Positions 15,750-52,494 of a stretch of DNA of 64,000 nt are shown piece by piece. Position 1 is the first letter of the stretch, and each line of letters opens with the position of its first letter. This DNA comes from Thermoplasmatales archaeon (GTDB taxonomy: Archaea > Thermoplasmatota > E2 > UBA202 > JdFR-43), in the NCBI GenBank assembly GCA_014361195.1, contig JACIWA010000005.1, positions 1 to 64,000 of the forward strand. The letters run 5' to 3'. The translations under genes and the position numbers were made by a program. The notes under the pieces are model-generated. The model saw nothing but the letters and a program-made list of their open reading frames with translations. It was not told the origin of the DNA and did no database searches.

Positions 15750-18700
15750 CTATGTTCTCTCACTAGTAGCTTTTCTCACTAAACTTAATATAAAGATATT
15801 AATTTCCTTTTCCGCCAAATTACCTGCAAGGTCTTTTGAAATAATTTTTATTTCATACTTGCCCCAAAACTTTTCATTTAATTTATATGCGTTTATTGTA
15901 TAAATTATTCCTGTTGTGCCTTCCGCTACTAGTTTCTCGCCAATGTAAAGGGTCATGTCTGAAACACCTGACCCACTATCTTTTGCATTTACAATAAAAG
16001 TTATTTCACTTATTGCAATAACTTTATTGCCAATTAGAGGTATTACTCGATGATTTGCTATATAAATTCCTGGTTTTGGTTTATCAATTAATATTTCTGG
16101 TGGAGATGAATCAACATTTAAGCTAATTTCTTTTACTTCTTCCCGCAAACCCGCATTATCTATACTGTAGAAATACAACACGTGCTTACCATCGCCTATA
16201 ACAAATGATTCTCTATATTCTCTCCACTCTTCATTATCCAGCCTATAAAATGTTTTTGCAACTCCACTCCCATTATCCACCGCCTCCAATCTAACTTTAA
16301 CTGGCCTATTATACCACCCATTATCTCCATCTGGCACGGAAGGATCAAGAATGCATGAAGTCGTTGGTCTGCATTCTCCTACATGCACCACAAATTTTTC
16401 AAATTTTCTATTGCCTACATTATCATATGCATTTAAATATATTTCATGGGTTCCATTTGAAAGTGTGAAAGGTGATTCAAATCTCCTCCAGTTGCCATCA
16501 TCTACTTTATAATCTATTTTCTTAATTCCACTTCCTTCGTCGTGCGCGTATAGGGATATCTGTGTAGAGTGTGAAATATAGTATATACCCCTGGATAATT
16601 CGAATAATCCTTCAAAATGAATTTCAACAGATGGAGGAGTGATATCAACAATATAAGTTTCAAAATTGTGAGGAGTTTCTTCATTTCCAGCCAAATCAAT
16701 TGCCCAATACTCTATAGTATATTTTCCTTCTTCAGTAAATAGCCAAACAAAAGTTATAATCTCATTCCATCCTCCTTCCCTCACTTCCCTATTGTTTTCC
16801 TTTCCATATATAATATAGAAAATCTTCCACGGGCCGACATCATCATCCGCATAAATATTAACTGTGCAAACTCTTGGCACAAATTGGGCTGGGTCTTCTC
16901 TTACAACAATCCATGACCATGGAGGTGAAATATCAAGCTTTAAATTAGTTGGGTCATTTTGTGGTGTGGTATTTGGATCATCTGTGGGCTGAGTAGCATC
17001 ATTTATCCCATCTCCATCTGTATCATAATACACATTACCTTGATTGGAAATAGTTCTACAGGTTGCATCGAGATTTACTCTAACCATGAAACTTATTTTT
17101 ATTGAGCTATTTGGAGGTATAACACCATTCCATATTATTTTGTCATTTATTGCATCGTATCCAATTCCATCTGAAATATCATCATCATTTGGCACATCAT
17201 TTATTTCGAGTGAATTAGCAACATAAGTAGTGCATGCAGGAATTTTATCTTCAAACTCATTTCCTGGATTATCATTTGAAGGAGCATTGCCTGTATTGTT
17301 GATCCATATTGTATATCTTATTATATCTCCTGGTTTTAGAGGTGGGCCATTTAAATCCTCTGCTATTTTTGGATCATAGATGTTTGGCATATCCTCTATT
17401 ACATTTACAAATTCTGTATCTATATCATATAATTCATATCCTAACTCATCTTCAGCTGTTACATTTACTTCATTAAATGTATCTGATGTTATTGATGTTA
17501 TATTTATATATATCCATGTTTCTCCTGGTTCAAGAATTCCATCTCCATCATCTCCAGATAAATAGATGAATGTTAAGCCTTGGCTATCAATTATTGATTT
17601 AATTGTTAAATTACAATCTCCACTATTTGTTATATTTAACCAATATGTTACTTCTTCTCCAATGTGAATTGTTTTTGGATATGCTTCTTTTGTTATGCTT
17701 ATGCTTGGATTTATTACATTTACAAATTCTGTATCTATATCATATAATTCATATCCTAACTCATCTTCAGCTGTTACATTTACTTCATTAAATGTATCTG
17801 ATGTTATTGATGTTATATTTATATATATCCATGTTTCTCCTGGTTCAAGAATTCCATCTCCATCATCTCCAGATAAATAGATGAATGTTAAGCCTTGACT
17901 ATCAATTATTGATTTAATTGTTAAATTACAATCTCCACTATTTGTTATATTTAACCAATATGTTACTTCTTCTCCACTGTGAATTGTTTTTGGATATGCT
18001 TCTTTTGTTATTCTTATTGATGGATTTATTACTTTAACATATGCACTATCTTCATCATAAACAATAATATAGCTTATATTTCCTTCAGCGGTTACATTTG
18101 CTAAATTTGTAAAATTTCCATTTCCGCTAACAGTAACATTAAAAGTAATATAAAACCATGTTGAATTCGAAAATGGCCCTGTCAAATTCCATGAAATATT
18201 ATTTCCCCACTGAATTGGATCACTTAAGTTTGTATCATTCTTTTTAGCAGATCCATTTATATAAATAAATGAATTTGGTAATATATCTGTAATATTTATA
18301 TAGGATAAATTCTCTGTCCCTGTGCTGATCACTGTTATATTAAAAGTAACTATATCTCCAGAATGAACAGTAACAGATTCACCCCAATATGAATTATTCC
18401 ATACAGTTTTACTTGCTGTTATGTTTGGATTTAGAGGAGCAGATATAACTGTTGTATTTTCCCATGTTTCATTATATATACCAGTCAAATTTGATAGATT
18501 TCCATATGTTACATTTGCATAATTATGCAAAATCGTATTATTTTCTAAAGACGAATTAACAAAAACACTTATATTTACACTCCATGAAGAATTAACGGAG
18601 AGATTGAAAATCCATGTATTATTTCCTTGTGTTGGTGATGGAGTTGAAGAGATAAAGCTTACATTTGAATCATAGATTTCTACCAATGTTACATTTGTAA

Positions 18701-19448
18701 GGTTTATTCCAACAGTATTATTAACCCATATAGTATAATTCAATATTCCTCCCGCATAAACAGGGTCAGGTTTATCGCTTTTTTCTATACTTAAATAAAC
18801 ATAAGGTGGAAAAAATGGCCCGAACGGGATATCACTTAAATCAGGACCATCTGTTGTTGGCATTTGCTCAAGATTTGGATTTTCTTGATCTGTTGCCCAA
18901 ACAAGTATATAAAAAGGATATGGATTTTCTATAGCCTCCCAGCTTATGTACATAAGCACACATTTACCAATTATTTCATATCCGCCTATGGAGCTATTAG
19001 TTATTAATCCACCACTATAATTTCCTTCCCACTCGCTAAACATACCATCCCCATCTAAATCCTTTAAAAGATAAACATCTCCAATCCCATCATCATTTGT
19101 GTCCTCAACAAAAAACAAATATTCTCCGCCCGTTATGGTCCCTCCCTGAACTCGCCCGTCTCCGTTCAAATCTATAAACCATTTATATCTCGTATCTTCG
19201 TGTTGAGTAAAATTTGGATATCCATAACAGCATAGCCTAAGATATAAATAGTTTTCATCCATCGCTATATAAGCATATTGAACATCTCTATAATCATCCT
19301 GCGCCCCACCTTCATTTCCATCGGTATCAATCAAAGTCCATTGACTTGGCCATCCAGATGGTGGCTGACCTAATATTTGGGAAATTAAACCATAGACTCC
19401 ATAACTGATAATAATTGCCACTATTACAATTAATAGCATCTTTTTCAA
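15750..19448 (-). CDS. Secreted DUF11/Ig-like repeat protein (1232 aa)
   Basis: It starts at a TTG (19448) placed 5-8 nt after GAGGCGAG; an in-frame ATG is three codons later. A signal peptide or anchor (residues 1-25) is followed by a domain of about 190 residues with many Asp-rich loops (DLNGDGR, DTNDDG, DLDGDG) that resembles CBM9/DOMON-like sandwiches. Next come DUF11-type repeats with LNYTIWVNN and ITNSGDCNL text, two of them nearly identical, then three or four Ig-like domains ending in DxAGN. There is no C-terminal anchor, cohesin or dockerin. Many N-x-S/T sequons suggest heavy glycosylation. It is the last gene of the minus-strand cluster, 252 bp after its neighbour. Function beyond a cell-surface or secreted adhesion-type protein is not known. 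Confidence 0.75.
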   Translation of the reverse strand: MKKMLLIVIVAIIISYGVYGLISQILGQPPSGWPSQWTLIDTDGNEGGAQDDYRDVQYAYIAMDENYLYLRLCCYGYPNFTQHEDTRYKWFIDLNGDGRVQGGTITGGEYLFFVEDTNDDGIGDVYLLKDLDGDGMFSEWEGNYSGGLITNSSIGGYEIIGKCVLMYISWEAIENPYPFYILVWATDQENPNLEQMPTTDGPDLSDIPFGPFFPPYVYLSIEKSDKPDPVYAGGILNYTIWVNNTVGINLTNVTLVEIYDSNVSFISSTPSPTQGNNTWIFNLSVNSSWSVNISVFVNSSLENNTILHNYANVTYGNLSNLTGIYNETWENTTVISAPLNPNITASKTVWNNSYWGESVTVHSGDIVTFNITVISTGTENLSYINITDILPNSFIYINGSAKKNDTNLSDPIQWGNNISWNLTGPFSNSTWFYITFNVTVSGNGNFTNLANVTAEGNISYIIVYDEDSAYVKVINPSIRITKEAYPKTIHSGEEVTYWLNITNSGDCNLTIKSIIDSQGLTFIYLSGDDGDGILEPGETWIYINITSITSDTFNEVNVTAEDELGYELYDIDTEFVNVINPSISITKEAYPKTIHIGEEVTYWLNITNSGDCNLTIKSIIDSQGLTFIYLSGDDGDGILEPGETWIYINITSITSDTFNEVNVTAEDELGYELYDIDTEFVNVIEDMPNIYDPKIAEDLNGPPLKPGDIIRYTIWINNTGNAPSNDNPGNEFEDKIPACTTYVANSLEINDVPNDDDISDGIGYDAINDKIIWNGVIPPNSSIKISFMVRVNLDATCRTISNQGNVYYDTDGDGINDATQPTDDPNTTPQNDPTNLKLDISPPWSWIVVREDPAQFVPRVCTVNIYADDDVGPWKIFYIIYGKENNREVREGGWNEIITFVWLFTEEGKYTIEYWAIDLAGNEETPHNFETYIVDITPPSVEIHFEGLFELSRGIYYISHSTQISLYAHDEGSGIKKIDYKVDDGNWRRFESPFTLSNGTHEIYLNAYDNVGNRKFEKFVVHVGECRPTTSCILDPSVPDGDNGWYNRPVKVRLEAVDNGSGVAKTFYRLDNEEWREYRESFVIGDGKHVLYFYSIDNAGLREEVKEISLNVDSSPPEILIDKPKPGIYIANHRVIPLIGNKVIAISEITFIVNAKDSGSGVSDMTLYIGEKLVAEGTTGIIYTINAYKLNEKFWGKYEIKIISKDLAGNLAEKEINIFILSLVRKATSERT
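17398..18027 (-). repeat. Two tandem 315-bp near-identical repeats (105 aa each)
   Basis: Copy one is 17398-17712 and copy two is 17713-18027. They differ at only a few bases; one change turns His-Ser-Gly-Glu-Glu into His-Ile-Gly-Glu-Glu. Each encodes one DUF11-like domain. The near identity points to a recent duplication or ongoing gene conversion. Confidence 0.9.
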
Positions 19449-19700
19449 GTTCTCGCCTCTTATTATATATAAATTCTAAATTTATAAATTTTTTCTAAAT
19501 TCTTCTTAAATTTTTAAGAAAAGCGGAATTAAACTTTCTAAATCTACAATAATTGAGAATTTTTTCAACTGAGAATCTGCGATTTTTATTCTTTTACCTT
19601 CTCTAATCTGGATTTTAATTAGCTCAAATTCAATACTTTCTTCTCTTAATCATTTCTGCAACTTAGTTTTGCTTTTTATCTTGTCTATTAGTAACGGTTA

Positions 19701-22298
19701 TTAAAGAGGATTGAAGAATATTGCCTCTATCTCTTCTTCGTTTTTATTTCCCGCTTTATCATAAGCTATTGCTTTTATCTTATGGACTAAAATCAGCTTT
19801 TCATCGCATGTCCATGAATATGGGAAACTGAAATCCTCACCCTTCTTAACATCATCTATGTAAAATTCCACTTTTTGTATTCCATATGTATCATTTGCGG
19901 TAACTTCAACCGTTATTTTTCCTATTATTACCGGTTTTCCTATGATTGGAATGACCCCCCTATCAAATATATACATTTTTCCTTTCTCTGGCTTATCTAT
20001 TTTAACCTTTGGTTTTGTATTATCAATTGTAAAGTTCTGAGAAATCTCACTGCCAGAATTATGAGAGCTATCCGTGGCAATTATCATTATAACATAATTG
20101 CTTCCATCTTCCAAGCCAGCGATGTTCCATGTATGTGAGCCATCATTCGCCTCATCAACCGCAACATTTATCCATATGCCCCCGCCGTTTGGGCTGTATT
20201 TTATTGTTATTTTAACATTTGTGCCGTCATAATTATCATTTGCGCTCCATCTTATCGTAACATTTCCAGATAAAAATTCTCCACCCGCTGGAGCTATTAT
20301 CTCAATTGATGGAGGTGTAATATCTCTTATCTCAAAATTTTGAAATGCGGAAATATTGGAGTTATTTGATGAATCAATTGCATATATGAAAAAGGAGTAG
20401 TTTCCTATCAAGCTATATGTTCTATTGCAGAAGAAAGTATTTCCTGTTCTATTGCTGAATATGCTGAAGTTTTCATGAGTTAAGTTAGGATATGTTATAT
20501 TCAAAAATACATCACTTACATTCACATTATCCGTGACAATGCATGATATATTCATATTTATTCCAAAGCTTGCTATGGATGGATATGAAATATTTTTTAT
20601 CTCAGGAGGACTTAAATCCTTTATCTCAAAATTATAGAGGGATGAATTTACGGAGTTATTTGATGAATCAATTGCATATATGAAAAAGGAGTAGTTTCCT
20701 ATCAAGCTATATGTTCTATTGCAGAAGAAAGTATTTCCTGTTCTATTGCTGAATATGCTGAAGTTTTCATGAGTTAAGTTAGGATATGTTATATTCAAAA
20801 ATACATCACTTACATTCACATTATCCGTGACAATGCATGATATTCTTACATATTTCCCAGCATCTTGAACTGGTGGGGTTGCTACAACATCACTTATTGA
20901 GGGTGGAATATTATCTTGCCATAATACCGTCAAATTTACTCTTATTTTTCCACTTCCTCCATTTGAATTTATTGATATGTTGCATACATAGTTGCCCGCA
21001 CTTAATCCAGTTGTATTTACTGTTATTTTTATCTCATCACGCTCTCCTGATGATGAGCCAGTTGTTACATTTAAAGAAAGCCATGTACATGTTTCACTTA
21101 AATTATAGTAAAGAATACCACTTCCACTATTCCATATCTCAAATGTTGATTCTGCGGTTGTATTTTGCAATAAATTGAAGTCAAAATATGCAGGATAGTA
21201 GGAGAGAACTGGAGCAAATCTTCTTATTTCAAATGTTGAATTGCTTTCATCATATCCGGAATTGCTTGCATAATCATATGCAACTACTTTAATTTTGCAA
21301 TTTGTTGAAGGTGTATCTGGAATAAGCCATTCATATATTCCATCATTTTCTGTTCCTATAAATATTGGATTATATGTTACTCCACCATTTGTTGAGTAAT
21401 AGATAGCTATTGATTGAACACCATAATCATCTGTTGCAATCCATCTTATATTTTCAGTTGTTCCAACATATAATATTTCTCCTCCATTTGGATAAATAAC
21501 TTGCACAACTGGAGGAGTAGTATCAATTGGAATTACTGTCAAATTTACTCTTATTTTTCCACTTCCTCCATTTGAATTTATTGATATGTTGCATACATAG
21601 TTGCCCGCACTTAATCCAGTTGTATTTACTGTTATTTTTATCTCATCACGCTCTCCTGATGATGAGCCAGTTGTTACATTTAAAGAAAGCCATGTACATG
21701 TTTCACTTAAATTATAGTAAAGAATACCACTTCCACTATTCCATATCTCAAATGTTGATTCTGCGGTTGTATTTTGCAATAAATTGAAGTCAAAATATGC
21801 AGGATAGTAGGAGAGAAATGGGATCAAGTCAGTTTGAACATTTACACTCCCATTTACAACAATTAAATCTGTTGTTCCATGAACTATCGGATTTTCAATA
21901 TTTATATAGGATGAGCCAGTTCCTATGGCGGTGAAATTTATTATTGCAAAGGTGCCTTCCTGCGTCTTCGATGTGCTGGAGACCGCCATTATGTAGCTTA
22001 TTTTGCCAGCGGTATTGTCTATTACTATAGTTAAGTTTCCGAGCCAGGTTTCGAACATCCCGCCATTTGTCACGCTATTTGCCCTTAAAATCGAGGGATT
22101 GAATGAGATGTTGCAGGCGGCGGATGAAACAGGTGAGGCGGGGGTAATATTTATTCTTACAGAAAATGAAGAATTCAAATTTACTGTTTGCGATGATGGC
22201 ACTATTGATATGGTGTGCTTGCTATCCGCAACTGCTAAATTTAAGGAAGCCAGAACAAGCATTAAACAGATTATAATTTCCTTCTTCATTTTTTTCAC
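19701..22298 (-). CDS. Secreted protein with one cohesin-like domain and duplicated Ig/BACON-like repeats (865 aa)
   Basis: Residues 1-24 are a signal peptide. Residues about 26-155 match a cohesin: SIVPSSQTVNLNSSFSVRIN, AACNISFNPSILRANSV, GGMFETW, IDNTAGKISYIMAVS and GTFAIINFTAIGTGSS, in the cohesin strand order. Two identical BACON-like domains (FLSYYPAYFDFNLLQN to GKIRVNLTV) flank a domain with YPNGGEILYVG. Two copies of an Ig-like domain (CIVTDNVNVSDVFLNITYP) follow, then two more Ig-like domains. There is no membrane anchor and no dockerin. A GGTGA Shine-Dalgarno precedes the ATG. It lies 62 bp after the anchored scaffoldin gene, so it could be a free adaptor carrying dockerin proteins. 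The cohesin call is from sequence pattern only. Confidence 0.75.
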   Translation of the reverse strand: MKKMKKEIIICLMLVLASLNLAVADSKHTISIVPSSQTVNLNSSFSVRINITPASPVSSAACNISFNPSILRANSVTNGGMFETWLGNLTIVIDNTAGKISYIMAVSSTSKTQEGTFAIINFTAIGTGSSYINIENPIVHGTTDLIVVNGSVNVQTDLIPFLSYYPAYFDFNLLQNTTAESTFEIWNSGSGILYYNLSETCTWLSLNVTTGSSSGERDEIKITVNTTGLSAGNYVCNISINSNGGSGKIRVNLTVIPIDTTPPVVQVIYPNGGEILYVGTTENIRWIATDDYGVQSIAIYYSTNGGVTYNPIFIGTENDGIYEWLIPDTPSTNCKIKVVAYDYASNSGYDESNSTFEIRRFAPVLSYYPAYFDFNLLQNTTAESTFEIWNSGSGILYYNLSETCTWLSLNVTTGSSSGERDEIKITVNTTGLSAGNYVCNISINSNGGSGKIRVNLTVLWQDNIPPSISDVVATPPVQDAGKYVRISCIVTDNVNVSDVFLNITYPNLTHENFSIFSNRTGNTFFCNRTYSLIGNYSFFIYAIDSSNNSVNSSLYNFEIKDLSPPEIKNISYPSIASFGINMNISCIVTDNVNVSDVFLNITYPNLTHENFSIFSNRTGNTFFCNRTYSLIGNYSFFIYAIDSSNNSNISAFQNFEIRDITPPSIEIIAPAGGEFLSGNVTIRWSANDNYDGTNVKITIKYSPNGGGIWINVAVDEANDGSHTWNIAGLEDGSNYVIMIIATDSSHNSGSEISQNFTIDNTKPKVKIDKPEKGKMYIFDRGVIPIIGKPVIIGKITVEVTANDTYGIQKVEFYIDDVKKGEDFSFPYSWTCDEKLILVHKIKAIAYDKAGNKNEEEIEAIFFNPL
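20358..20843 (-). repeat. Two 192-bp identical repeats, 294 bp apart
   Basis: Copies at 20358-20549 and 20652-20843 appear identical base for base. Each encodes most of one Ig-like domain (CIVTDNV to YAIDSSNNS). Confidence 0.85.
20929..21817 (-). repeat. Two 280-bp identical repeats, 609 bp apart
   Basis: Copies at 20929-21208 and 21538-21817 appear identical base for base, including synonymous sites, while the 329-bp Ig-like domain between them is unique. Each encodes one BACON-like domain. This indicates very recent duplication or gene conversion. Confidence 0.88.
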
Positions 22299-22360
22299 CT
22301 TTTATTATGTAATATAAAACTCTATTTAAATTTTCACAAAATAAAAAGAGAAGGAGGGGA

Positions 22361-25300
22361 TTATTTCTTTGGCTTCTTTTCTTCCTTCTTTTCCTCTGTT
22401 TCCTTTTTTTCTCCCTTGCTTCTTCTCCTCCAGATTGCAAAGACTGCTATTGCTATTATGATGAGTATTACTATTATTATCAGATATAGCCATATATTCA
22501 CTTTTTCAGCTTTTATCTCTATCTGTATGACTTTTTCTGCGGTTGCGCCATCGTTGTCTTTTACAATCAATGTTACATTATATGTTCCTTCTTTTTCGTA
22601 TGCATGCTTTGGATTCTGCTCATAGCTTATATTTCCATCTCCAAAGTTCCATGTCCAATTGACAATGCTTCCATCCTCATCCGTTGAAAGGGAAGTGAAG
22701 TTGATATCTTCCTTTGGTTTTGGTTTATCCGGAGAATATGTTATCAATGCTGTCGGTGGCTTGTTTCTTACTTCTATTATCTGTGAAGTTGAGGCATTTG
22801 CTCCCTTATCATCTTTTACTGTTAATTTAACCACATATGTGCCATTATCTGCGTATTTATGAGTTGGATTTTGGGCATAACTTATGTTTCCATCTCCAAA
22901 GTCCCATGTCCAATTTACTATGCTTCCATCTGGATCATAGCTTCTATCTGCAAAGGTTATTGTATCTGTATCATATGGTTGCAATGGACTGTATGTGAAG
23001 TTTGCAACAGGTGGCTTGTTCTTCTGAATTGTAAATGAGAATGAATTGATTGAGCCAGTATTTCCTGCATTATCAACGGCATAATATTCTACAGTATGGC
23101 TTCCTTCTGATGAAACTGTATGGCTTCCATAGGAGTCACTAATAGTGTAGCTTGTTCCATCTATCTTATAAATTATTCTGCTTACTCCTGAAACAGTATC
23201 TGAGGCAGAGAATGAAATTGTTACATCTGTTGTGTATTTTCCATCAACAAGCGTACCAGCTAGGCTATGGCTTGCGGTTGGAGCTGTTTTATCTATTTTA
23301 ATTGATATGTTCTTTTCTGCTTCCGTGTTTCCTAAATTGTCTATGCTGTAATAATAAATTGTATGCTGTCCCTCGCTTGAGATTGTAACATTTGATGTAT
23401 ATTCATTCCAAGCACCAGCATCAATCTTATAATATATTTTATTTACTCCACTTTTTTCGTCGGTTGCTGTTAAATTCAAAATTACATTGCTCTTATACCA
23501 GTTATTATCTCCGATTGTTCCCTGCAAGTGAGTTGTTTCTGGTGGAGTATTATCAACATAAACTGTTTGATTATGCCATGCAGTATTTCCTAAGTCATCA
23601 ATTGAAGTTATGTTAATCCAGTGAGTGCATTCTTCATCAATTGTAAAGCTGAGTGTTGCTGTTCCGCTTGTTACATTATTCCATTCATCATAAATTAATT
23701 GTCCAGTTGATGCATTATATACTTTTACATTTAGATGAACTGAGCCAACAGCACATAGGCCAGTATCTGTTGAATTTAGATAAATTGTTGTTTGAGATGT
23801 TATATGCTCATTGTATATTGCTCCTTCAAATTCTTTTGTTATTGTTGGCTCGCTATTATCAACTTTTACTTCTATGCTCTTTATTTCTTCTTCATTTCCA
23901 AGATAATCAACTGCATAGTATTCTATTGTATGAGTGCCTTCATCATCTATTGTAAATGGAGAAGTATATTCAATCCATGTTGCTCCATCGAATGAATAGT
24001 AAATTGCTTCTACTCCTACCCCTATATCAACTGCTGTTAATGTTATTTGCGTGGCTGAAGTAATCCAGTGATTTGTTCCATCAAAATAATAAGGTAAGCC
24101 AAATGTTAATGTTGTTTCTGGTGGAGTTAAATCAGCTTCAAGAGTTGCATTCTGAGTTATGACATAGAGAGGTGGATAAGTATCAACATTTATTATATTA
24201 ATTTCACTTATTCCTGTCTGTTTTGCCTCAAATTCTATTGTTGCAAGCAACCCTTCTTCTGTTACGGGTGGAGCTGGCGGAAGTTGTGTTACACTTACTA
24301 TGACGGATCCTTTCGTATTATTTATAATTGGGTAAATAAAATTGAATAATCCGCCGTCGATAACATTTGTTACACTGAAATTATCTGGATCAAAAATTAT
24401 TTCAAAGCCAATAGCGCTAATTTCATTTCCATTTGGATTTAAACTGATATTGAATGTTGCCTTATCCTTTGTTATTTGATATGCCGGCTCAATCAGCAAA
24501 TACACAGGTGGATTTCTTATTTCAACTGTTGCATTTTCAAAAACAAGAGGATAGGGATGGTTTTCTACATCTACAACCATACATAGTGGTTCACCATTCT
24601 CAGTTTCAGGATCAAAGTTTATAGATGCATTTCCTGCTTCTTTTGCTTTAAATGTAATTGTTGCAAAAACGCCGCCGGAAGCAGGCTGATCTAGGAAGGT
24701 GAAGCCCATAATATTATCTATTCTACCAGCTGTATTGTTTATTATCCCACTACTGTTTAAACTTTCAAACATATCTCCATTTTCAACTTTTATTGCCTCA
24801 AGAAGGGTTGAATTAAATTCAATGAAACACTCCACTGCATAGATATTTTCTGCCTCCACAACAATATCAACTGTAAATTCTTCTCCTTTCTCAACTGCCT
24901 GGAATGATGGCGATATGCTCATTTTTGGAATATAAACTTCTACCCTAACTGTTGCTTCATTGCTCCATGCTCCTTCATTGTCCTTAACTTTATATTTGAA
25001 CTCATCAATGCCTGTAAAGCCCGCATCTGGTGTATATAATACTGTTCCATCTGCATTTACTGATACACTTCCATGGGCTGGAGCTTGAGTAATTTCTATG
25101 CTTGCTAAATTTATGCTTCCATCTGTATCATAGTCATTTTCCGTTACATTTATCAAAACAGGAAAGTTTTGAGGTGTTTTTACTTCATCATCAACTGCAA
25201 CAGGTGCCTCATTTACTGGATTTATTGTTATTGTAACTGTTGCAATGTTTGAATAATCTTGTCCATCATATGCCTGATATGTAAATGTATCCTCGCCGTT

Positions 25301-26383
25301 ATAATCTGCATCTGGAGTATATGTAAATGAACCATCTGGATTTAATGTTAAAGTTCCATGAGCTGGAGCATCAACAAGAACAGCTGTTAAAGTATCTTCA
25401 TCTGCATCATAATCATTTGCCAGCACTCCTGTTGAAGCATCTATGGTTAATGTTGTATCTTCATCTGTTTCATAGCTGTCATCAACTGCAACAGGTGGAG
25501 TGTTTATTATTAAACCAAGATGAATTTCATTTACTAATATTTCTCCTGCTTTTATTGTGAAGTTCTCTGAATGTGATGGATAACCTTCTTTTTCTACCTC
25601 AATTGTATATTCTCCTGGAGGCATTGTAAAGCTTGCATATCCATTTTCATCTGTCCAATCCCCTACATGATATGAATAGTCTTCATTGTATATTTCTACA
25701 TATGCATCTTCTATTGGATTTCCTTCGCTATCATAAACATATACTTCTTTTGTTGCAATTTCAACAACTACATTATTTGGTAATGTTTGCCCTGCTTCTA
25801 TTGTAAAGGTTTCTTTATATACAACATAAGAGCTGTCTGAATAGATGTCATCTACTTTAATTGTATATTCTCCTGGAGGCATTGTAAAGCTTGCATATCC
25901 ATTTTCATCTGTCCAATCCCCTACATGATATGAATAGTCTTCATTGTATATTTCTACATATGCATCTTCTATTGGATTTCCTTCGCTATCATAAACATAT
26001 ACTTCTTTTGTTGCAATTTCAACAACTACATTATTTGGTAATGTTTGCCCTGCTTCTATTGTAAAGGTTTCTTTATATACAACATAAGAGCTGTCTGAAT
26101 AGATGTCATCTACTTTAATTGTATATTCTCCTGGAGGCATTGTGAAGCTTGCATATCCGTTTTCATCTGTCCAATCCCCTACATGATATGAATAGTCTTC
26201 ATTGTATATTTCTACATATGCATCTTCTATTGGATTTTCTTCGCTGTCATAAACATATACTTCTTTTGTTGCAATTTCTCCGCTACCAACATGCGGAACC
26301 TGAGCAAGGGTGGGCAAAGAAGAAAATAAAAGAATAAAAGAAAGGAAGAAGATTAGTCCTTTCCTAGTGTCTTTCTTCATCAT
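22361..26383 (-). CDS. Membrane-anchored scaffoldin-like protein with two cohesin-like domains (1340 aa)
   Basis: The domain order is: signal peptide (1-28); three tandem 86-residue carboxypeptidase-regulatory-like repeats (36-293); two Big_9/cadherin-like domains (294-485, VANDYDADEDTLTAV type); cohesin-like 1 (about 486-626: MSISPSFQAVEKGEEFTVDI, FIEFNSTLLEAI, NNTAGRIDNIMGF, GVFATITFKAKEAG); cohesin-like 2 (about 627-755: LLIEPAYQITKDKATFNIS, EGLLATIEFEAKQTG); four Ig-like domains (756-1115); two PKD domains (1117-1290, WTWDFGDGNISY). A membrane helix follows (about 1296-1318), then RRRSKGEKK and a Lys/Glu tail inside the cell. The layout fits a cell-surface anchoring scaffoldin whose cohesins hold dockerin proteins. 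A GGGGTGA Shine-Dalgarno precedes the ATG. The upstream gene, ending 15 bp before, encodes a dockerin protein. Confidence 0.82.
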   Translation of the reverse strand: MMKKDTRKGLIFFLSFILLFSSLPTLAQVPHVGSGEIATKEVYVYDSEENPIEDAYVEIYNEDYSYHVGDWTDENGYASFTMPPGEYTIKVDDIYSDSSYVVYKETFTIEAGQTLPNNVVVEIATKEVYVYDSEGNPIEDAYVEIYNEDYSYHVGDWTDENGYASFTMPPGEYTIKVDDIYSDSSYVVYKETFTIEAGQTLPNNVVVEIATKEVYVYDSEGNPIEDAYVEIYNEDYSYHVGDWTDENGYASFTMPPGEYTIEVEKEGYPSHSENFTIKAGEILVNEIHLGLIINTPPVAVDDSYETDEDTTLTIDASTGVLANDYDADEDTLTAVLVDAPAHGTLTLNPDGSFTYTPDADYNGEDTFTYQAYDGQDYSNIATVTITINPVNEAPVAVDDEVKTPQNFPVLINVTENDYDTDGSINLASIEITQAPAHGSVSVNADGTVLYTPDAGFTGIDEFKYKVKDNEGAWSNEATVRVEVYIPKMSISPSFQAVEKGEEFTVDIVVEAENIYAVECFIEFNSTLLEAIKVENGDMFESLNSSGIINNTAGRIDNIMGFTFLDQPASGGVFATITFKAKEAGNASINFDPETENGEPLCMVVDVENHPYPLVFENATVEIRNPPVYLLIEPAYQITKDKATFNISLNPNGNEISAIGFEIIFDPDNFSVTNVIDGGLFNFIYPIINNTKGSVIVSVTQLPPAPPVTEEGLLATIEFEAKQTGISEINIINVDTYPPLYVITQNATLEADLTPPETTLTFGLPYYFDGTNHWITSATQITLTAVDIGVGVEAIYYSFDGATWIEYTSPFTIDDEGTHTIEYYAVDYLGNEEEIKSIEVKVDNSEPTITKEFEGAIYNEHITSQTTIYLNSTDTGLCAVGSVHLNVKVYNASTGQLIYDEWNNVTSGTATLSFTIDEECTHWINITSIDDLGNTAWHNQTVYVDNTPPETTHLQGTIGDNNWYKSNVILNLTATDEKSGVNKIYYKIDAGAWNEYTSNVTISSEGQHTIYYYSIDNLGNTEAEKNISIKIDKTAPTASHSLAGTLVDGKYTTDVTISFSASDTVSGVSRIIYKIDGTSYTISDSYGSHTVSSEGSHTVEYYAVDNAGNTGSINSFSFTIQKNKPPVANFTYSPLQPYDTDTITFADRSYDPDGSIVNWTWDFGDGNISYAQNPTHKYADNGTYVVKLTVKDDKGANASTSQIIEVRNKPPTALITYSPDKPKPKEDINFTSLSTDEDGSIVNWTWNFGDGNISYEQNPKHAYEKEGTYNVTLIVKDNDGATAEKVIQIEIKAEKVNIWLYLIIIVILIIIAIAVFAIWRRRSKGEKKETEEKKEEKKPKK
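25505..26278 (-). repeat. Three tandem 258-bp repeats (86 aa each)
   Basis: Copies run about 26278-26021, 26020-25763 and 25762-25505 with an exact 258-bp period. The first two are almost identical; the third diverges in its last 90 bp. Each encodes a carboxypeptidase-regulatory-like fold (VYVYDSEGNPIEDAYVEIYN). Confidence 0.9.
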
Positions 26384-37390: not shown

Positions 37391-37447
37391 TTTTATCCCC
37401 CTAATAGATTGCATCGTTAGGAGAAATATATTCGCTATTTATATAAA
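37391..37447 (-). promoter_or_regulatory. Promoter and leader of the giant dockerin gene
   Basis: The minus strand reads TTTATATAAATAG (37435-37447), about 50 nt before the ATG, implying a leader of roughly 25 nt. GGGGG at 37397-37401 with a 6-nt spacer forms a strong Shine-Dalgarno. The 18-nt stretch from AGGGGG through ATGAAA is identical to that of the beta-helix gene at 41876. Confidence 0.55.
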
Positions 37448-43859: not shown

Positions 43860-43875
43860 ATTTGTAATAGTTTTT

Positions 43876-44802: not shown

Positions 44803-44844
44803 GTCTATAAAAAATTTTTATTTTATAAACATTTTGACTAAAAA

Positions 44845-44872: not shown

Positions 44873-44873
44873 A

Positions 44874-44881
44874 TTTAAATA
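44874..44881 (+). promoter_or_regulatory. TATA box of the Lrp/AsnC gene
   Basis: The box ttaaatat starts 28 nt before the ATG at 44902, indicating a leaderless mRNA and supporting 44902 rather than the in-frame TTG at 44887 as the start. Confidence 0.55.
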
Positions 44882-44901
44882 TATTTTTGTCATTAAGACA
44901 C

Positions 44902-45342: not shown

Positions 45343-45343
45343 T

Positions 45344-45417
45344 GGGCCCGCGGAGATTTGAACTCCGGACCTCCCGGTTATCAGCCGGGCGCTCCAACCT
45401 GGCTAAGCTACGGGCCC
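45344..45417 (-). tRNA. tRNA-Ile (GAT anticodon)
   Basis: The 74-nt cloverleaf on the minus strand has the acceptor GGGCCCG/CGGGCCC, anticodon stem CCCGG/CCGGG with loop CTGATAA (anticodon GAT), and T-loop GTTCAAATC. CCA is not encoded and no intron is seen. Confidence 0.95.
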
Positions 45418-45441
45418 TTACTTGTATCCAAATATTTATTT

Positions 45442-47754
45442 TTAAAGTTTTTTACCGCAATTGATACAATTTCCTACTCTTTTTGCACAGCTCCTGTGAT
45501 AAAGGGCACCACAATTGCATTTCAAAATATTTGCTTCCTGTTTAAATGAACCAAGGCAAACCGAGCATTTTTCAACTTTTTCCTCTTCAATAAACACTTT
45601 TTTCTTTCTGAGCAGAAGATATGCTGGAATAGCTAAAAGTGGAATAAAAACAAAATAGATAAAATTATTCTTTCCATATTTTATTGAAATTTCCAGCTCA
45701 TTATTTTTTTCATTTCTTTCCTCTATTTCATTATACGGGTCAACAATAATTTTTATTTTGCTTACTCCTTTGAAATGAATCTCTTTTTCATATTCTTCAT
45801 AAATATTGAAAATAGAATAATTCTCTCTACCATCTAAAAAAACAGAGCATTTAACATTTTCACAATATCCTCCATCATTTTTTATCTTCAAAATTAAAGT
45901 TATTTCATCCCCTTTCTTTGGCTTATCTGGCAAGTAGCTTGCTTCAACAGAAAAATCTGGAATAATAACATAAATCAATTTATCTACTTCATGATAATAA
46001 GCTCCATCAAAAACACTCAGCTTAACCCTATATTTCCCTTCTCTATCAAAAGCATGCGTCACATTTCTTCCATACCCAATGCTCCCGTCCCCAAAATTCC
46101 AGCTATAATTAACTCCCTCTCCAATCGCTGAAAAATATACATTCACGCCAGGCGCAGGCCTCGCTGGAGAAAATTCAAAATAAACATTTGATTTAACAAT
46201 TATTGCTATTGTGGAGTTACTTTTTGCTCCTTTATCATCAGTAACAGTCAATTTTGCAGTATAATTTCCAGTATTATTATAAGAATGCTGCTTTGTTGAA
46301 GGAGGGGAGCCAGAGCCATTATATTCTGTAATTCCATCATTATCTATATCAAGCTCCCAGTAAGCTATGTAGCCATCTTCATCACTTGCATTAATTATGA
46401 AATTAACCACAAGAGGAGCATATCCCTCGCTGATATTTACTTGAAGTGAGCATTTTGGTGGTTTATTTTCTGGAGGAGGTGGAAAAGGAGGAGATGGAGG
46501 TGGAGAAGGAGGAGAAGGTGGAGTATATACAATAGTTGTAAATATCCATGTGTCAGATGAAGTTTCTGCTATGCTATCATTTGCAATTGCATACCATTCA
46601 TATGTTGTGTTATAAGCCAAATTATACCATGTTATTGAAGTATCTGTATTATTTGCAACATTTGTTTTTGTTCCTATTAATTGCCATGTTACATTTCCTA
46701 ATTTACGGCCATAGAAACTAACATTCATCAAATTTCCATCTATATCAACAACATGAACAGTAAGATTTGCATTTGTGCTTAAATTTAGAGAGTTATTTGC
46801 TGGAGTCACTAGCAAAGGCTTATTTGGCACATCATTTACCGGTGTTATATTTATGAAAACTGTTGCTTCATTGCTCCAAGCGTTGCTATTATCCTTTACT
46901 TTATATTTGAATGAATCTGAGCCATGATAATTTGCATTAGGTGTGTAGGTTACTGTTCCATTTGCATTTACTGTTACATTTCCATGAGATGCATTTTGGG
47001 TTATTGTTACACTGCTTGCATCTATTGTTCCATCTATATCATAGTCATTTTCCAATATGTTTATTATAACAGGTGTATCTTCATCTGTTGTGCAATAATC
47101 ATTATTTGCAACCGGAGGATCATTTACTGGTGTTATAGTGATATAAACTGTTGAAATGTTGCTATAATCTTGTCCATCATATGCTTTATATGTAAAACTA
47201 TCCTGGCCACTATAATTTGCATGAGGTGTATAAGTAAATGAGCCATTTGAATTCAATGTTAAGCTACCATGAGTTGGGCCATTTACTAAAACAGCGGTTA
47301 AAGTATCTCCATCTGCATCGCTGTCATTTCCCAATACTCCAGGTGCATTTACAGTTAATTTTGTATCTTCATTTGTTGTGTAATAATCATCATTTGCAAC
47401 AGGTGGATTGTTTCTTCTCAATGAAATATTTACAAAAGAAAATTCTTCATTAGTTAAAACTATTATAGCGCTTTTATAATATTCCTCATAAAAAACTTCT
47501 ATGAGAACCTCATCTCCAACCTCCCATTCTTTAAAATTTCCTAAATTGATTCCATACCATCCATCTGGATATTCCTCTGCTATTCCACTTTCATTTGTTC
47601 TAAGCACAGTTACAATAACAGTTGCTCCACTTACCGGCAGGTTGTTTAAATCAACATGAGTCCAGATTGTGTAAGGTGTGCCTTGTTGGGCTAAGATTAA
47701 ATTAGAAAGAAGGATGGATGATACAATTAATGGAATAAATTTTTTTATTTCCAT
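45442..47754 (-). CDS. Transmembrane adhesion protein with cytoplasmic RING-like zinc finger (770 aa)
   Basis: The order is: signal peptide (1-22); carboxypeptidase-regulatory-like domain (25-112); two Big_9/cadherin-like domains (115-300, with DYYTTNEDTKLTVNAPGVLG); a fibronectin-like domain (305-405); a Pro-Ser linker (SPPPSPPFPPPP); PKD domains (about 430-600); a CARDB-like domain (600-690); a membrane helix (about 698-716); RKKK; and a C-terminal finger. The finger reads CSVC-x11-CNC-x4-H-x2-C-x6-C-x2-C, a RING-type spacing. By the positive-inside rule the finger is cytoplasmic. No anchor gene partner is seen. The finger could bind protein partners or simply be a structural zinc ribbon. 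Confidence 0.75.
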   Translation of the reverse strand: MEIKKFIPLIVSSILLSNLILAQQGTPYTIWTHVDLNNLPVSGATVIVTVLRTNESGIAEEYPDGWYGINLGNFKEWEVGDEVLIEVFYEEYYKSAIIVLTNEEFSFVNISLRRNNPPVANDDYYTTNEDTKLTVNAPGVLGNDSDADGDTLTAVLVNGPTHGSLTLNSNGSFTYTPHANYSGQDSFTYKAYDGQDYSNISTVYITITPVNDPPVANNDYCTTDEDTPVIINILENDYDIDGTIDASSVTITQNASHGNVTVNANGTVTYTPNANYHGSDSFKYKVKDNSNAWSNEATVFINITPVNDVPNKPLLVTPANNSLNLSTNANLTVHVVDIDGNLMNVSFYGRKLGNVTWQLIGTKTNVANNTDTSITWYNLAYNTTYEWYAIANDSIAETSSDTWIFTTIVYTPPSPPSPPPSPPFPPPPENKPPKCSLQVNISEGYAPLVVNFIINASDEDGYIAYWELDIDNDGITEYNGSGSPPSTKQHSYNNTGNYTAKLTVTDDKGAKSNSTIAIIVKSNVYFEFSPARPAPGVNVYFSAIGEGVNYSWNFGDGSIGYGRNVTHAFDREGKYRVKLSVFDGAYYHEVDKLIYVIIPDFSVEASYLPDKPKKGDEITLILKIKNDGGYCENVKCSVFLDGRENYSIFNIYEEYEKEIHFKGVSKIKIIVDPYNEIEERNEKNNELEISIKYGKNNFIYFVFIPLLAIPAYLLLRKKKVFIEEEKVEKCSVCLGSFKQEANILKCNCGALYHRSCAKRVGNCINCGKKL

Positions 47755-48426
47755 TTTACTACCCCACTATTCATCGCTAAAATTTTATCAAAAAATTCTT
47801 CGGTTGTTTTTTCTCTCTTTTCACAAAAAATAATTTCTTTGATTTCCCTCCGCTGATAAACATGGAAATCGCCATTACATTATCTTTTATACTTTTTAAA
47901 GAATTTTTTATGATAATTATAAGCGCCATAATCGCTATTGCGATTACTCCACCCATTTTTTCCCTCTTTCTACACATAAATGAACTAATTGTATATAAGT
48001 TTAATCCGAGGAAAATTTTCTTAATTATGAGCAAGCTCGAGAGTTATGCCCGCTTTCGTAGCCCTGCCTTCATCTCTCCTTCCAGATTATTTCTCAATAA
48101 TATGGAAAATATTTGCTGAGTAAAAAATTGAAGAAACCAAAGGAATTAATTATTTTCATTTTCTCAACCATAAAAAGCATTTCTGTAATTTTTTCCAACG
48201 AATAGTAATATTTTTGCTCGCATTTCCAACAGCCTCACATCTCAACAGGGACATTTATTTTTTTCAAAATGAAAAAGAGTTATAAATATCAGAGAATAAG
48301 TGAATAGTCCTAAAATTCTTAGCCAGTCTGGATTATCTTTGGTGAATCTATTCTTATTTTGTTAATGGCGGTGCATTCCAAAGGAATTAAAATAAGCAAA
48401 AGGAAAGGAAGCGTAAAAACTTCATC
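47755..48426. other. Gene-free AT-rich stretch (672 bp)
   Basis: Short open frames occur on both strands, but they lack family features and overlap each other, so I annotate none. TATA-like text occurs near 48290-48300. A 13-bp direct repeat, CCAAAGGAATTAA, lies at 48137-48149 and 48378-48390. It separates two minus-strand secreted-protein genes and may hold the promoter of the downstream 770-aa gene. Confidence 0.5.
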
Positions 48427-51400
48427 TTAACCGGTCCAATGCTTTATTATTTCTATGATATCATTTACATCAACTATTCCATCTTTATTTACATCCGCTC
48501 TTTCATCCCAATCTGGATGGTTCGGAGTTTGCATCCAATGCATGATTACAAAGAAAATATCTTCTGCATTTACTCTTCCATCTGAGTTCACATCCCATGG
48601 AGCATAAACCTTGCAATATGCCTTCGGGACGGTGCTTGCATTTGGCAATGGCTCATGATTTCCAAGTAAATCATATGCCACTGTGTAGAATTGATAATAT
48701 CCACTCTCTCCAAAGAAAATCCATGTAAAGTTGCTATATTTCTCTCCATATAATGTCCAGTTTGTCCAAGTAAAATTATCTTTGCTATATCTATAATAAA
48801 GGGCTACTTTTTTAACCCCAACACCCACATCAGTTGCATTAACTTTTATTTCTATTCTTGTAGAATATGTTAAATATGGAATTGGCTCAATAATGGAAGA
48901 AGGAATAAAGCAATCAACAAAAACATCATTCCATTTCATTTGCTCAACATTTCCAGCATTATCAATGCTATAAAATTCAATTTCATATTTCCCACACGGA
49001 GAATAATTGTATAAAATTCCAAGATCCGCAAGATTTATTGGACGATATGGAAGCGTGCCAGAATATTCTCTCCAGTCAAATAGCAATTTCCAACCATTTT
49101 CAAATTTAAATATTCTGTAAAATGTTTTATTAACTCCTGAGCCATTATCAATTGCCACCAAATCTATTGTTGTATTTCTGAGAATATAATGCACAACGTA
49201 GCCACCAAAACTTGAAATATTAACAACTTCTCCATTAAATCTCTTATAAGTGTAAGGTGGCTCAGATATCACAGGTGTATATACATAAGCTTCCCCATAT
49301 GCCCCTTCATTGCATGTCGCATTTACATAATTTCTAATAATAGAGCCATCACTTACATTGCTCCCAACTTTTACCTTCACCAAAATTTCATAGGATGCAG
49401 ATGGCACAAGAGTGGGTATTACCCATGTATCAACGCCTGAAGAAGGCATTGGGAAAGTGTATACTACTGTTACCCTACTATCATATACTTCCTTTACAAC
49501 CACATTTGTTGCACTCGCCAAACCATTATTCTTTATTTTTATTCTATAAGAAATATTTGTCCCAGCCTCAGCAAATTCTGGTGTGCTTTCTTTTGTTACA
49601 AGAAGTGAAGGAGATGCAACAGTTGTATTTTCCCAAGTTTGATTAAATATTCCTTGCAAACATGTTACATTTACATAATTATGCAAAATTGTTCCATTTG
49701 GTAGAGGACTTTTAACTTGAACTCTTATGTTTATTGTTTTTGTCTCACTTACATTTAATGTTCCTAAATTCCATGTATTGTTTCCTGAGCTTGGAGAAGG
49801 ATTTGATGAAATGAAAATGATATTGCTATCATATAATTCAGTAACAGTTACATTTGTTGCATTTTCACTTCCATTATTTGTTACATTTATTGTATAATTT
49901 AAATAGCTTCCTGGAGTAACTGGATCATTGCTATCTTGCTTTGTTATTATTAGCAATGGAGCTGATATAACTGTTGTATTTTCCCAAGTTTGATTAAATA
50001 TTCCTTGCAAACATGTTACATTTACATAATTATGCAAAATTGTTCCATTTGGTAGAGGACTTTTAACTTGAACTCTTATGTTTATTGTTTTTGTCTCACT
50101 TACATTTAATGTTCCTAAATTCCATGTATTGTTTCCTGAGCTTGGAGAAGGATTTGATGAAATGAAAATGATATTGCTATCATATAATTCAGTAACAGTT
50201 ACATTTGTTGCATTTTCACTTCCATTATTTGTTACATTTATTGTATAATTTAAATAGCTTCCTGGAGTAACTGGATCATTGCTATCTTGCTTTGTTATTA
50301 TTAGCAATGGCTTTTTCTCAATAACCAAGTGTTTCTGAGTATGCTTTTCCTCCTTATTCTCAACATTATCTACAGAGAACCATCTTATTTCATTTATTCC
50401 AGCATTTGTAAGATTAATAAGAACAGATATTTTCCCAAATTCCGGATTTTTATCATAAGTAGTGTTATCATAAATTGTCGCATTTTTTACCATTGTATCC
50501 ACTATTCCATCCCGGTTGCTATCATGCCATATTTCATAATAGAGATATTTAACACCTGATGAGCAATTGCCTGTATCAGTTGCATTCAGCCAAATAGGAG
50601 TTTCTGATGTTACATTATAAACATCATCACTCACAACAGTTTTATTTGTAAGAGGTGGAAAAATATCAACTCTTAAAAAATTAACATTCCTAAGCCCTCT
50701 TTCCAAGCACCAAAAAGTGTCATTGCTTCCATTTTCTCTCCCCCAGTCATAGAAAAGGATATTAAGCAAACTATCTCCATCTACATCTCCGACCGCTGGC
50801 GATGTCCTCACCCTGCCATTTGTTAAAAATTTATCGATAAGCTTACCATTGCAATCAATCTCGTAAAGATATCTATCTTCGGAGCCAACAAATATGGAGA
50901 GCTTACCTCCAACCCCTTCATATAATCCAGTTCTTCTTTCATTTCCCCTAAACATCGGCCACTCTCTCGCAAAAGCACTACTTGTCTGTGATGCAAGTGC
51001 GGGTGATGAATAAATTGGGCCTCCTGTTGTGAAATTCCAGAGCATTGAACCATTTCTTCTGAGGCAGTAAAGTTTGCTATCATTAGAACCAAAAACTATT
51101 TCATAAAAGCCATCCGCATTTATGTCACCAATCGCTGCAGATGAATAAATTGGGCCTCCTGTTGTGAAATTCCATTCTTGCAAACCAACAGCTCCATTCC
51201 ACTGCAAGCAATAAAATTTTCCATCTGTTGAACCAATTAAAATTTCTTTATAGCCATCTCCATCAATATCCGCAATTGCAGGTGATGAATAAATCGCTCC
51301 CCCTGTTGTAAAATTCCATTCCTGAAGGCCATTTGATCCATTTAATACATATACTTTTCCATCAGCGGAGCCAAAAACTACTTCATTTCTTCCATCATTA

Positions 51401-52494
51401 TCAATGTCACCAATTGCGGGAGTTGAAATAACATTTCCAGATGTATTGAAAACCCATAAAACATCCCAATCAGTTCCTTCATAACCTATATGATTTGGAT
51501 ATCCAGGGAAGTAAGGAGAAGTGCCATCTCCATTGAGAGGCAATGTAAATCCCTCATTCATTCCATCACTATTATCCCCATCAAAGCACCATAAATTTTT
51601 AAAAGGGTTATTCCCTATAACAATTTCTAAGCCACCAACACTTTCATTTAATTCACCTATTGCTGGGGAAGAATGCCATACATAATTACCACCTGTTGCA
51701 TTTGTTGTTACATGAGGGAATGTCCACTTAAATGTTCCATTATAATTAATCACTTCAAGAAGCCACCCGCTTGTTGTGCCACCCGCAACATCTAATTTTC
51801 CATCACCATTAACATCAAAAATTGCTGGCGAGCTTCTTGATTCATCAGTTTTTGTATCAAGAGCCCATAATATGCTTCCATTATAATTAAAGCATCTCCA
51901 TATCCCTCTCGCAGTAGCATTTATTTCTGGATAAAAATTTGTTATTTCATCGCTCCCGCACGCTATTTCAAGTTTTCTATCTCCAGATAAATTTGCAATC
52001 GCAGGAGATGAGCCAAACACACAACCATTTGGAGCATGAACAACATTCGGCATAAAGCTATAATTCCACTCCTTATACAGGTAATGGCCATGTTTCTCAA
52101 CATTTCCCGCCCAGTCAACAGCATAGAATTCTAACTTATGCAGACATTCCCTATTTATTGTTATTCTTACAGATATTTTTTTAGATTCATTGTTCATGTC
52201 TTGAGGTGAGTTATCGTTAATCGTTCTGTTTTCTATTATTATATCCACTGCTCCATCATTGTCTATATCCCTCCATATTTCGTAATAAAGATATCTAACT
52301 CCTGTACCAACATCTGTTGAATTTAGCCATATGATAGTTGAATTACTTATCCATTCCATCCCGTCTTTTATGTATAAAGGGCCATAATAACTTTTTATTG
52401 TTACTGGTGGAGTGTTATCAGTTGCCCCTCCTCTATGGAGAATAATGCATATAAGTAACACTATAAACAAATATGCATATTTTTTTAAGCTCAT
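48427..52494 (-). CDS. Secreted dockerin protein with FG-GAP/PQQ-like propeller and DUF11 repeats (1355 aa)
   Basis: A signal peptide (1-24) is followed by an Ig-like domain (with a RECLH element like the other cluster proteins) and a propeller of about 420 residues. The propeller repeats SSPAIGDIDNDGRNEVVFGS and YCLNGS-type blades, as in FG-GAP/PQQ repeat proteins. Next come Ig-like and three DUF11 domains (LNYTINVTNNGSENATNVTV), two nearly identical, then two more Ig-like domains. The final 58 residues form a dockerin with calcium loops DVNSDGRVNAEDIFFV and DVNKDGIVDVNDIIEI, ending KHWTG. No anchor is present, so retention by a cohesin partner is likely. It is on the same strand as the cohesin cluster but 6.5 kb from its first gene. 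Confidence 0.82.
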   Translation of the reverse strand: MSLKKYAYLFIVLLICIILHRGGATDNTPPVTIKSYYGPLYIKDGMEWISNSTIIWLNSTDVGTGVRYLYYEIWRDIDNDGAVDIIIENRTINDNSPQDMNNESKKISVRITINRECLHKLEFYAVDWAGNVEKHGHYLYKEWNYSFMPNVVHAPNGCVFGSSPAIANLSGDRKLEIACGSDEITNFYPEINATARGIWRCFNYNGSILWALDTKTDESRSSPAIFDVNGDGKLDVAGGTTSGWLLEVINYNGTFKWTFPHVTTNATGGNYVWHSSPAIGELNESVGGLEIVIGNNPFKNLWCFDGDNSDGMNEGFTLPLNGDGTSPYFPGYPNHIGYEGTDWDVLWVFNTSGNVISTPAIGDIDNDGRNEVVFGSADGKVYVLNGSNGLQEWNFTTGGAIYSSPAIADIDGDGYKEILIGSTDGKFYCLQWNGAVGLQEWNFTTGGPIYSSAAIGDINADGFYEIVFGSNDSKLYCLRRNGSMLWNFTTGGPIYSSPALASQTSSAFAREWPMFRGNERRTGLYEGVGGKLSIFVGSEDRYLYEIDCNGKLIDKFLTNGRVRTSPAVGDVDGDSLLNILFYDWGRENGSNDTFWCLERGLRNVNFLRVDIFPPLTNKTVVSDDVYNVTSETPIWLNATDTGNCSSGVKYLYYEIWHDSNRDGIVDTMVKNATIYDNTTYDKNPEFGKISVLINLTNAGINEIRWFSVDNVENKEEKHTQKHLVIEKKPLLIITKQDSNDPVTPGSYLNYTINVTNNGSENATNVTVTELYDSNIIFISSNPSPSSGNNTWNLGTLNVSETKTINIRVQVKSPLPNGTILHNYVNVTCLQGIFNQTWENTTVISAPLLIITKQDSNDPVTPGSYLNYTINVTNNGSENATNVTVTELYDSNIIFISSNPSPSSGNNTWNLGTLNVSETKTINIRVQVKSPLPNGTILHNYVNVTCLQGIFNQTWENTTVASPSLLVTKESTPEFAEAGTNISYRIKIKNNGLASATNVVVKEVYDSRVTVVYTFPMPSSGVDTWVIPTLVPSASYEILVKVKVGSNVSDGSIIRNYVNATCNEGAYGEAYVYTPVISEPPYTYKRFNGEVVNISSFGGYVVHYILRNTTIDLVAIDNGSGVNKTFYRIFKFENGWKLLFDWREYSGTLPYRPINLADLGILYNYSPCGKYEIEFYSIDNAGNVEQMKWNDVFVDCFIPSSIIEPIPYLTYSTRIEIKVNATDVGVGVKKVALYYRYSKDNFTWTNWTLYGEKYSNFTWIFFGESGYYQFYTVAYDLLGNHEPLPNASTVPKAYCKVYAPWDVNSDGRVNAEDIFFVIMHWMQTPNHPDWDERADVNKDGIVDVNDIIEIIKHWTG
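49622..50310 (-). repeat. Two 338-bp identical repeats, 351-bp period
   Basis: Copies at 49622-49959 and 49973-50310 appear identical, including synonymous positions. Each encodes a complete DUF11-type domain. Confidence 0.88.

Follow-up and report, generated by a model that had tools for sequence, protein, structure and literature searches.

Split cohesin–dockerin pairs on giant surface proteins of a Thermoplasmatota archaeon, a probable non-cellulosomal docking system

Cohesin–dockerin joints are already known in archaea, namely from Archaeoglobus fulgidus and from anaerobic methanotrophic archaea (ANME; PMC9012536). In A. fulgidus, the dockerin at the C-terminal end of ORF2375 (residues 432-506) binds the cohesin of ORF2376 (residues 29-162) strongly and specifically (PMC9705933), and ANME genomes encode scaffoldin-like proteins, in which a dockerin is combined with as many as five cohesins, as well as substrate-binding clients (Chadwick et al. 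2022, PMC9012536). Here we describe a cluster of giant secreted proteins encoded in a stretch of 64,000 nucleotides (the window), which is part of contig C5 of the 1.25-Mb metagenome-assembled genome (MAG; 96% complete) of a heat-vent archaeon of the Thermoplasmatota. All three cohesins and both C-terminal dockerins of the window lie on the minus strand. A preliminary description based on the sequence alone had recognized these five modules, and they are borne out by Pfam matches or, for the weakest cohesin, by its fold and its orthologues.

The locus resembles the ORF2375/ORF2376 pair in being archaeal and non-cellulosomal and in the succession of a C-terminal dockerin and an N-terminal cohesin in the next numbered open reading frame (ORF) (PMC9705933); moreover, its cohesin fold matches the A. 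fulgidus structure 2xdh. Unlike in A. fulgidus, three orthologous pair types are found order-wide, with double-cohesin membrane anchors, clients reaching 3800 aa and, in one type, an anchor with a RING tail, and binding is proven there but predicted from sequence here. ANME are likewise archaea with numerous cohesin and dockerin proteins that probably act at the cell surface (PMC9012536), but here the two modules are mainly split between separate neighbouring genes. The bacterial cellulosome is likewise built of cohesin and type I dockerin modules; in contrast to it, neither a dockerin-bearing glycoside hydrolase nor a scaffoldin with a cellulose-binding module is present here. We consider it probable, judging from the domain and gene arrangement, that the pairs form non-cellulosomal docked surface fibres composed of a secreted dockerin protein and a type I membrane cohesin protein. 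Within the literature searched, the order-wide use of split pairs on giant non-enzymatic proteins, the membrane-bound double-cohesin anchors and the RING-tailed form are new.

A giant dockerin protein and its probable membrane anchor

The set of genes at the centre of the window, termed type B below, encodes the following proteins and domains:

26399..37414, minus strand: giant secreted dockerin protein, 3671 aa, the type B 'client' (profile matches, topology, orthologues)
26402..26575, minus strand: type I dockerin closing the giant protein at its extreme C-terminus, with the loops DFNGDGRVNVID and DLDNSGKIDAGD (PF00404, 29.5 bits; 36.7 bits in another search)
22361..26383, minus strand: predicted membrane anchor of 1340 aa carrying its two cohesins on the extracellular side (profile matches, topology)
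24593..24892, minus strand: cohesin 1 of the anchor (PF00963 above cut-off; profile match to the solved cohesin 1g1k)
24173..24472, minus strand: cohesin 2 of the anchor, diverged (AlphaFold2 and Foldseek; orthologues above cut-off)
22418..22516, minus strand: C-terminal transmembrane (TM) segment of the anchor, aa 1290-1322 (hydropathy 3.54)
19701..22298, minus strand: secreted soluble protein of 865 aa bearing a single cohesin at its N-terminal end (profile matches, topology, orthologues)
21867..22181, minus strand: cohesin of the soluble protein (PF00963, 35.4 bits, aa 35-153; 40.8 bits in another search)

The giant protein comprises a signal peptide, a CarboxypepD_reg domain, several InhA-like MAM domains, many immunoglobulin (Ig)-like repeats and the C-terminal dockerin, and hydropathy and topology analysis revealed no membrane segment at its C-terminal end. 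Its gene starts with the first ATG at 37414; the preliminary description had chosen a later in-frame methionine at 37390. Orthologues of 3000-3800 aa occur in the relatives G006, G014, G015 and G019 (among the relatives, those with names are the Thermoplasmatota MAGs JdFR-43 and S5B3_HD70). The duplicated calcium-loop/helix segment of type I dockerins scores above the PF00404 cut-off (22.9 bits) in this protein and in the second dockerin protein of the window (48427-52494), both calcium loops being intact in each, and the dockerin profile matches solved dockerins (2y3n, E 3e-11).

The anchor gene begins 15 nt past the stop codon of the giant gene. Its product carries a signal peptide, three CarboxypepD_reg and two Big_9 domains, two cohesins, Ig repeats and two PKD domains, and ends in a TM segment followed by a lysine-rich tail. 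PF00963 (cut-off 24.1 bits) matches it in two stretches (31.6 bits for aa 498-585), and a tandem-cohesin profile built from nine genomes matches the solved cohesin 1g1k with an E-value of 8e-7. In the profile check two cohesins and both dockerins of the window exceed their cut-offs, and only cohesin 2, scored alone, falls below (19.9 bits). Orthologues at the same position reach 38.7 bits in G006 and 36.5 bits in G019. An AlphaFold2 model of cohesin 2, computed from three window sequences (predicted template modelling score, pTM, 0.72), retrieved solved cohesins (E 6e-7) in Foldseek at nearly all ranks down to 37, including A. fulgidus 2xdh. According to this model, even the weakest cohesin of the window adopts the cohesin beta-sandwich fold. 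At aa about 35-285 the anchor bears three near-identical CarboxypepD_reg copies, which are probably the result of a recent tandem duplication because the G007 orthologue carries a single copy.

The soluble protein is the product of the third gene in this conserved set; it also contains BACON and Ig domains and has orthologues in G007, G019, G014, G015 and G002. The adaptor role ascribed to it in the preliminary description has to be abandoned: the protein has one cohesin, and Pfam and topology analysis detected neither a dockerin nor a C-terminal TM segment or other membrane anchor, so it cannot bridge in the manner of a cellulosomal adaptor. A cellulosomal adaptor scaffoldin was rejected on the same grounds, as both modules are needed and the dockerin is absent. 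The soluble cohesin is solely a candidate partner of the type C dockerin described below; its class is equidistant from the first cohesins of type B and from those of type C (35% each).

Head-to-tail pairs across the order

Dockerins were detected in 20 and cohesins in 21 of the 22 genomes of the order that were compared, and the arrangement, taken for unusual in the preliminary description, is thus order-wide. For 27 of the 69 dockerins of the order the next gene on the same strand, at most 700 nt downstream, encodes a cohesin, and in none of the 22 genomes does a dockerin have a nearby cohesin on the opposite strand. Beyond the order the corresponding figure is 10 of 54 dockerins, counted within 1 kb. 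By our own estimate, a 1.25-Mb genome would show such an adjacency (cohesin at most 700 nt downstream) for any one dockerin in about 0.1% of cases; chance adjacency is therefore excluded, although the 27 pairs include orthologues and are not independent. Instead of the assembly of anchor, adaptor and client proposed earlier, the unit is a head-to-tail pair of a secreted dockerin protein and a type I membrane cohesin protein.

The pairs fall into three orthologous types. Type A, found in 14 genomes, combines an fn3-PKD-dockerin protein of about 835 aa with a double-cohesin TM protein. Type B, to which the window's set belongs, occurs in 9 genomes and combines a giant MAM/Ig dockerin protein (about 3000-3800 aa) with a double-cohesin TM protein, supplemented in most genomes by a soluble single-cohesin protein; it lies beside nusG and the L11 gene in the window's genome (G000), and genes of similar size are found there in G007 and G019. 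Type C consists of an FG-GAP/DUF11 dockerin protein and a single-cohesin protein (with a TM segment where the gene is complete), and this pair is intact in 3 genomes. The genome-wide dockerin search that the preliminary description had proposed, extended to cohesins, yielded the window's set and one further set on contig C1. The latter is of type A: the genes of an 824-aa fn3/PKD-dockerin protein and of a 986-aa protein, which has two cohesins at its start and a TM segment at its end, overlap by 4 nt and are followed by a DUF7289 type IV pilin-like gene. The C1 pair displays exactly the layout of a C-terminal dockerin and an N-terminal cohesin in the next gene, and the type B pair of the window the same head-to-tail layout with an insertion of roughly 450 aa in front of the cohesins. 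A single ORF of G015 unites the cohesin gene with the pilin-like gene (48% identity over 404 aa); L078:6824-10699 encodes such a fusion of a double-cohesin TM protein with the DUF7289 pilin-like protein, which in other type A loci has a separate gene directly after.

All 42 examined dockerins end 2-6 aa from the C-terminus, and a C-terminal TM segment is found in none of 38 dockerin-only proteins. By comparison, the intact paired cohesin genes of types A, B and C encode a C-terminal TM segment, with L078 (internal TM segment before the pilin part) as sole exception. The identity matrices of dockerins and first cohesins are strongly correlated over 25 adjacent pairs (Mantel test, r 0.91, p 2e-4), and also within type A (r 0.56, p 4e-4) and type B (r 0.69, p 0.011). 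In the cohesin tree the groups A-c1, A-c2, B-c1, B-c2, B-c3 and C stand apart, largely by set and position.

Other architectures exist as well. A single protein carries both cohesin and dockerin in the genera g4 and g12 (L089, L090, L097, L105), and the four-cohesin proteins of L089 and L099 are closer to scaffoldins. G053, a relative of the same class outside the order, has a much larger system: its 1.5-Mb genome, 65% complete, yields 29 matches to dockerin and 12 to cohesin.

The type C set and its RING-like tail

The second dockerin protein of the window belongs to type C, and the features of this set are the following:

48427..52494, minus strand: type C dockerin protein, 1355 aa, with FG-GAP beta-propeller, DUF11 repeats, Ig-like domains and C-terminal dockerin (profile matches, orthologues)
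48442..48597, minus strand: type I dockerin, loops DVNSDGRVNAED and DVNKDGIVDVND (PF00404, 35.6 bits; 42.7 bits in another search)
45442..47754, minus strand: 770-aa protein in the partner position next to the type C dockerin protein, with Big_9, PKD, CARDB, TM segment and RING-like finger (synteny with L076:11680-14019)
45457..45567, minus strand: Prok-RING_1 zinc finger, C4HC3, on the predicted cytosolic side (PF14446, 38.8 bits; cut-off 29.1 bits)
15750..19448, minus strand: secreted DUF11/Ig protein (profile matches, synteny)

Orthologues of the dockerin protein are encoded at L076:7971-11687 and L077:1211-4921. Contrary to the preliminary description, the local set is not complete, since this second client has no neighbouring cohesin. 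The reason lies in its positional partner 45442-47754, which, judged by sequence comparison, has lost the cohesin kept in its orthologues and retained the TM segment and the RING-like finger: the positional orthologue L076:11680-14019 has an N-terminal cohesin (PF00963, 35.5 bits), the same phosphoenolpyruvate carboxykinase (PEPCK)-like gene lies beyond both, and a CarboxypepD-like stretch occupies the cohesin position in the window. In G007 the orthologue of the secreted protein 15750-19448 immediately precedes the type C dockerin gene, so that this protein probably belongs with set C and has moved.

Several further genes adjoin type C sets. Secreted papain-family proteases without a cohesin follow straight after the type C dockerin genes at L091:2645-4627 and L103:9608-11647. 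Divergent from the type C dockerin gene of the window, 52655-54154 (plus strand) encodes a secreted protein with a metalloprotease-like HETGH motif, and ORFs of the same size (498-499 aa) lie near type C sets in G007. The window gene 42171-43859, a partial PEPCK_ATP match (58.5 bits), adjoins an AsnRS-like gene, and a PEPCK-like gene is found downstream of the pair C anchor also in G007.

A RING-like finger follows the TM segment at the C-terminal end of the type C anchors of L076, L100, L104, L107 and the window, and the five sequences share eight zinc ligands in RING-like order (C4HC3). Nine ORFs of the order, judged by coordinates, combine a cohesin with such a finger. C-terminal RING-like C4HC3 surface proteins are usually present once per genome in the order; in the window's genome a search with two models found no second RING, the tail of 45442-47754 being the sole match. 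E3 ligases typically have a hydrophobic residue before the second cysteine and a characteristic tryptophan, of which the tail contains the former and lacks the latter.

Elsewhere in the genome (L109:8275-9630; contig C7) an operon encodes a ubiquitin-like protein (Ubl), an E2 (UQ_con, 56.7 bits) and an RPN11-like JAMM protein. The Ubl scores 18.6 bits against the Pfam ubiquitin model, which is under the cut-off, and ends in DPVGG plus a short tail; in several relatives it terminates precisely at GG. The operon is conserved across the order: among the loci of relatives examined, nine have all three genes side by side, and a tenth has E2 next to JAMM. An E2 is present in 16 of the 22 genomes of the order as against 3 of 57 others of the class, and two ThiF proteins of the genome could, according to their sequences, act as E1. 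Within the order, 11 genomes have both E2 and RING, 5 a RING only, 5 an E2 only and 1 neither, so that the two do not co-track. The operon resembles the Ub-E1-E2-RING-Rpn11 system of Caldiarchaeum in uniting Ubl, E2 and an RPN11-type JAMM protein (PMC5654768, PMC6043591). There, the RING protein is a small-RING E3 (PMC5654768), whereas the sole RING of the present genome forms the tail of a membrane surface protein and is encoded apart from the operon. No cohesin–TM–RING protein was found described in our literature search. A docked transmembrane RING ligase is possible. That type C constitutes an archaeal transmembrane receptor, whose cohesin would dock an FG-GAP ligand and whose cytosolic RING-like end would act with Ubl, E2 and RPN11 as a membrane E3 with a layout like that of eukaryotic ectodomain-TM-RING ligases, appears doubtful to us.

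Proposed docked fibres and alternative readings

Most probably, each pair encodes a surface protein in two pieces, which a calcium-dependent, non-covalent plug would hold together. From the upstream gene would come a secreted beta-sandwich fibre without enzymatic function and with a dockerin at its end. The second gene, which runs in the same direction and overlaps the first or follows it after a few bases, would supply a type I membrane protein with one or more cohesins outside the cell to catch this dockerin. In the window, the 3671-aa MAM/Ig protein would be held by the double-cohesin anchor 22361-26383, which may accommodate up to two giant fibres. As a peripheral or capping component, the soluble protein 19701-22298 may take up one more dockerin, belonging either to its own set or to type C. 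The binding domains (MAM, fn3, FG-GAP propeller, Ig) are expected to face outward, and because the ligand-binding ends would point away from the cell, adhesion or substrate capture is the likely use of the fibres. The strongest support for binding between neighbours comes by analogy from the published A. fulgidus pair of the same layout; the adjacency of the genes and the matched divergence of their dockerins and cohesins are indirect evidence.

Some points speak against this picture of docked fibres. Binding and its calcium dependence are deduced from the sequences concerned, and adhesion or capture from domain types. Joint inheritance of linked genes without contact could yield part of the matched divergence. 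Two cohesins per anchor face a single dockerin per client, which leaves two fibres per anchor a presumed stoichiometry, and cohesin 2 may lack dockerin binding. In addition, the type C dockerin protein has no adjoining cohesin in the window's genome, and the AlphaFold2 model of the dockerin (three input sequences) was of low confidence (pTM 0.38) and was not used.

The pairs might alternatively serve the architecture of the envelope, with the giant docked proteins as the main coat and the joints as means of modular wall assembly rather than capture. The Ig-rich giants with their N-glycosylation sequons, the conservation of type A and B pairs across the order and the combination of surface-layer (S-layer) and dockerin domains in ANME-2c (PMC9012536) would fit such a role, which we nevertheless regard as unlikely though conceivable, given that no S-layer domain was matched and that the sets differ in number and content among genomes. 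Perception of docking, reported inside by the RING-like finger of type C and possibly relayed through Ubl, E2 and RPN11, is a rather unlikely function: the nine cohesin-TM-RING ORFs and the presence of the operon beside the genome's only RING are set against the uncorrelated occurrence of E2 and RING, the missing tryptophan and the loss of the cohesin from the window copy.

Neighbouring genes might also be merely co-inherited, their dockerins binding cohesins elsewhere or nothing, such that no local complex would form. This would account for the 29 of 69 dockerins on contigs without a cohesin match, for the broken type C pairing in the window's genome and for the papain-like protease gene that follows the type C dockerin gene in G019 and G013; yet many of the 29 contigs are short, divergence is matched and the head-to-tail order recurs in three pair types, and the A. 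fulgidus pair of the same layout does bind, which makes the absence of partnership quite improbable. A cellulosome-like degradative complex with enzymes recruited by cohesins is very improbable. The same papain-like neighbours may be cited for it, as may L106:468-6596 (G008), a Peptidase_C25 and beta-helix protein with a C-terminal dockerin; the three dockerin proteins of the genome, however, contain no fused enzyme and no glycoside hydrolase. A cellulosome was rejected for this lack of enzyme domains; Pfam matched no carbohydrate-binding module, and with at most two cohesins per protein the genome contains no many-cohesin scaffoldin. The earlier view of an archaeal, non-cellulosomal surface complex without glycoside hydrolase or protease fused to a dockerin stands for the window; a dockerin-bearing protease does exist in a relative (L106).

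On the reading as docked surface fibres, cohesin–dockerin joints would be a stable, order-wide means of holding giant archaeal surface proteins. The three sequence types in each lineage offer ready candidate cognate pairs, which may be thermostable tools. Pair C connects docking at the surface with a RING-like domain in the cytosol, and because the lineage also has the Ubl-E2-RPN11 operon, it becomes directly testable whether archaea use ubiquitin-like signalling at the membrane.

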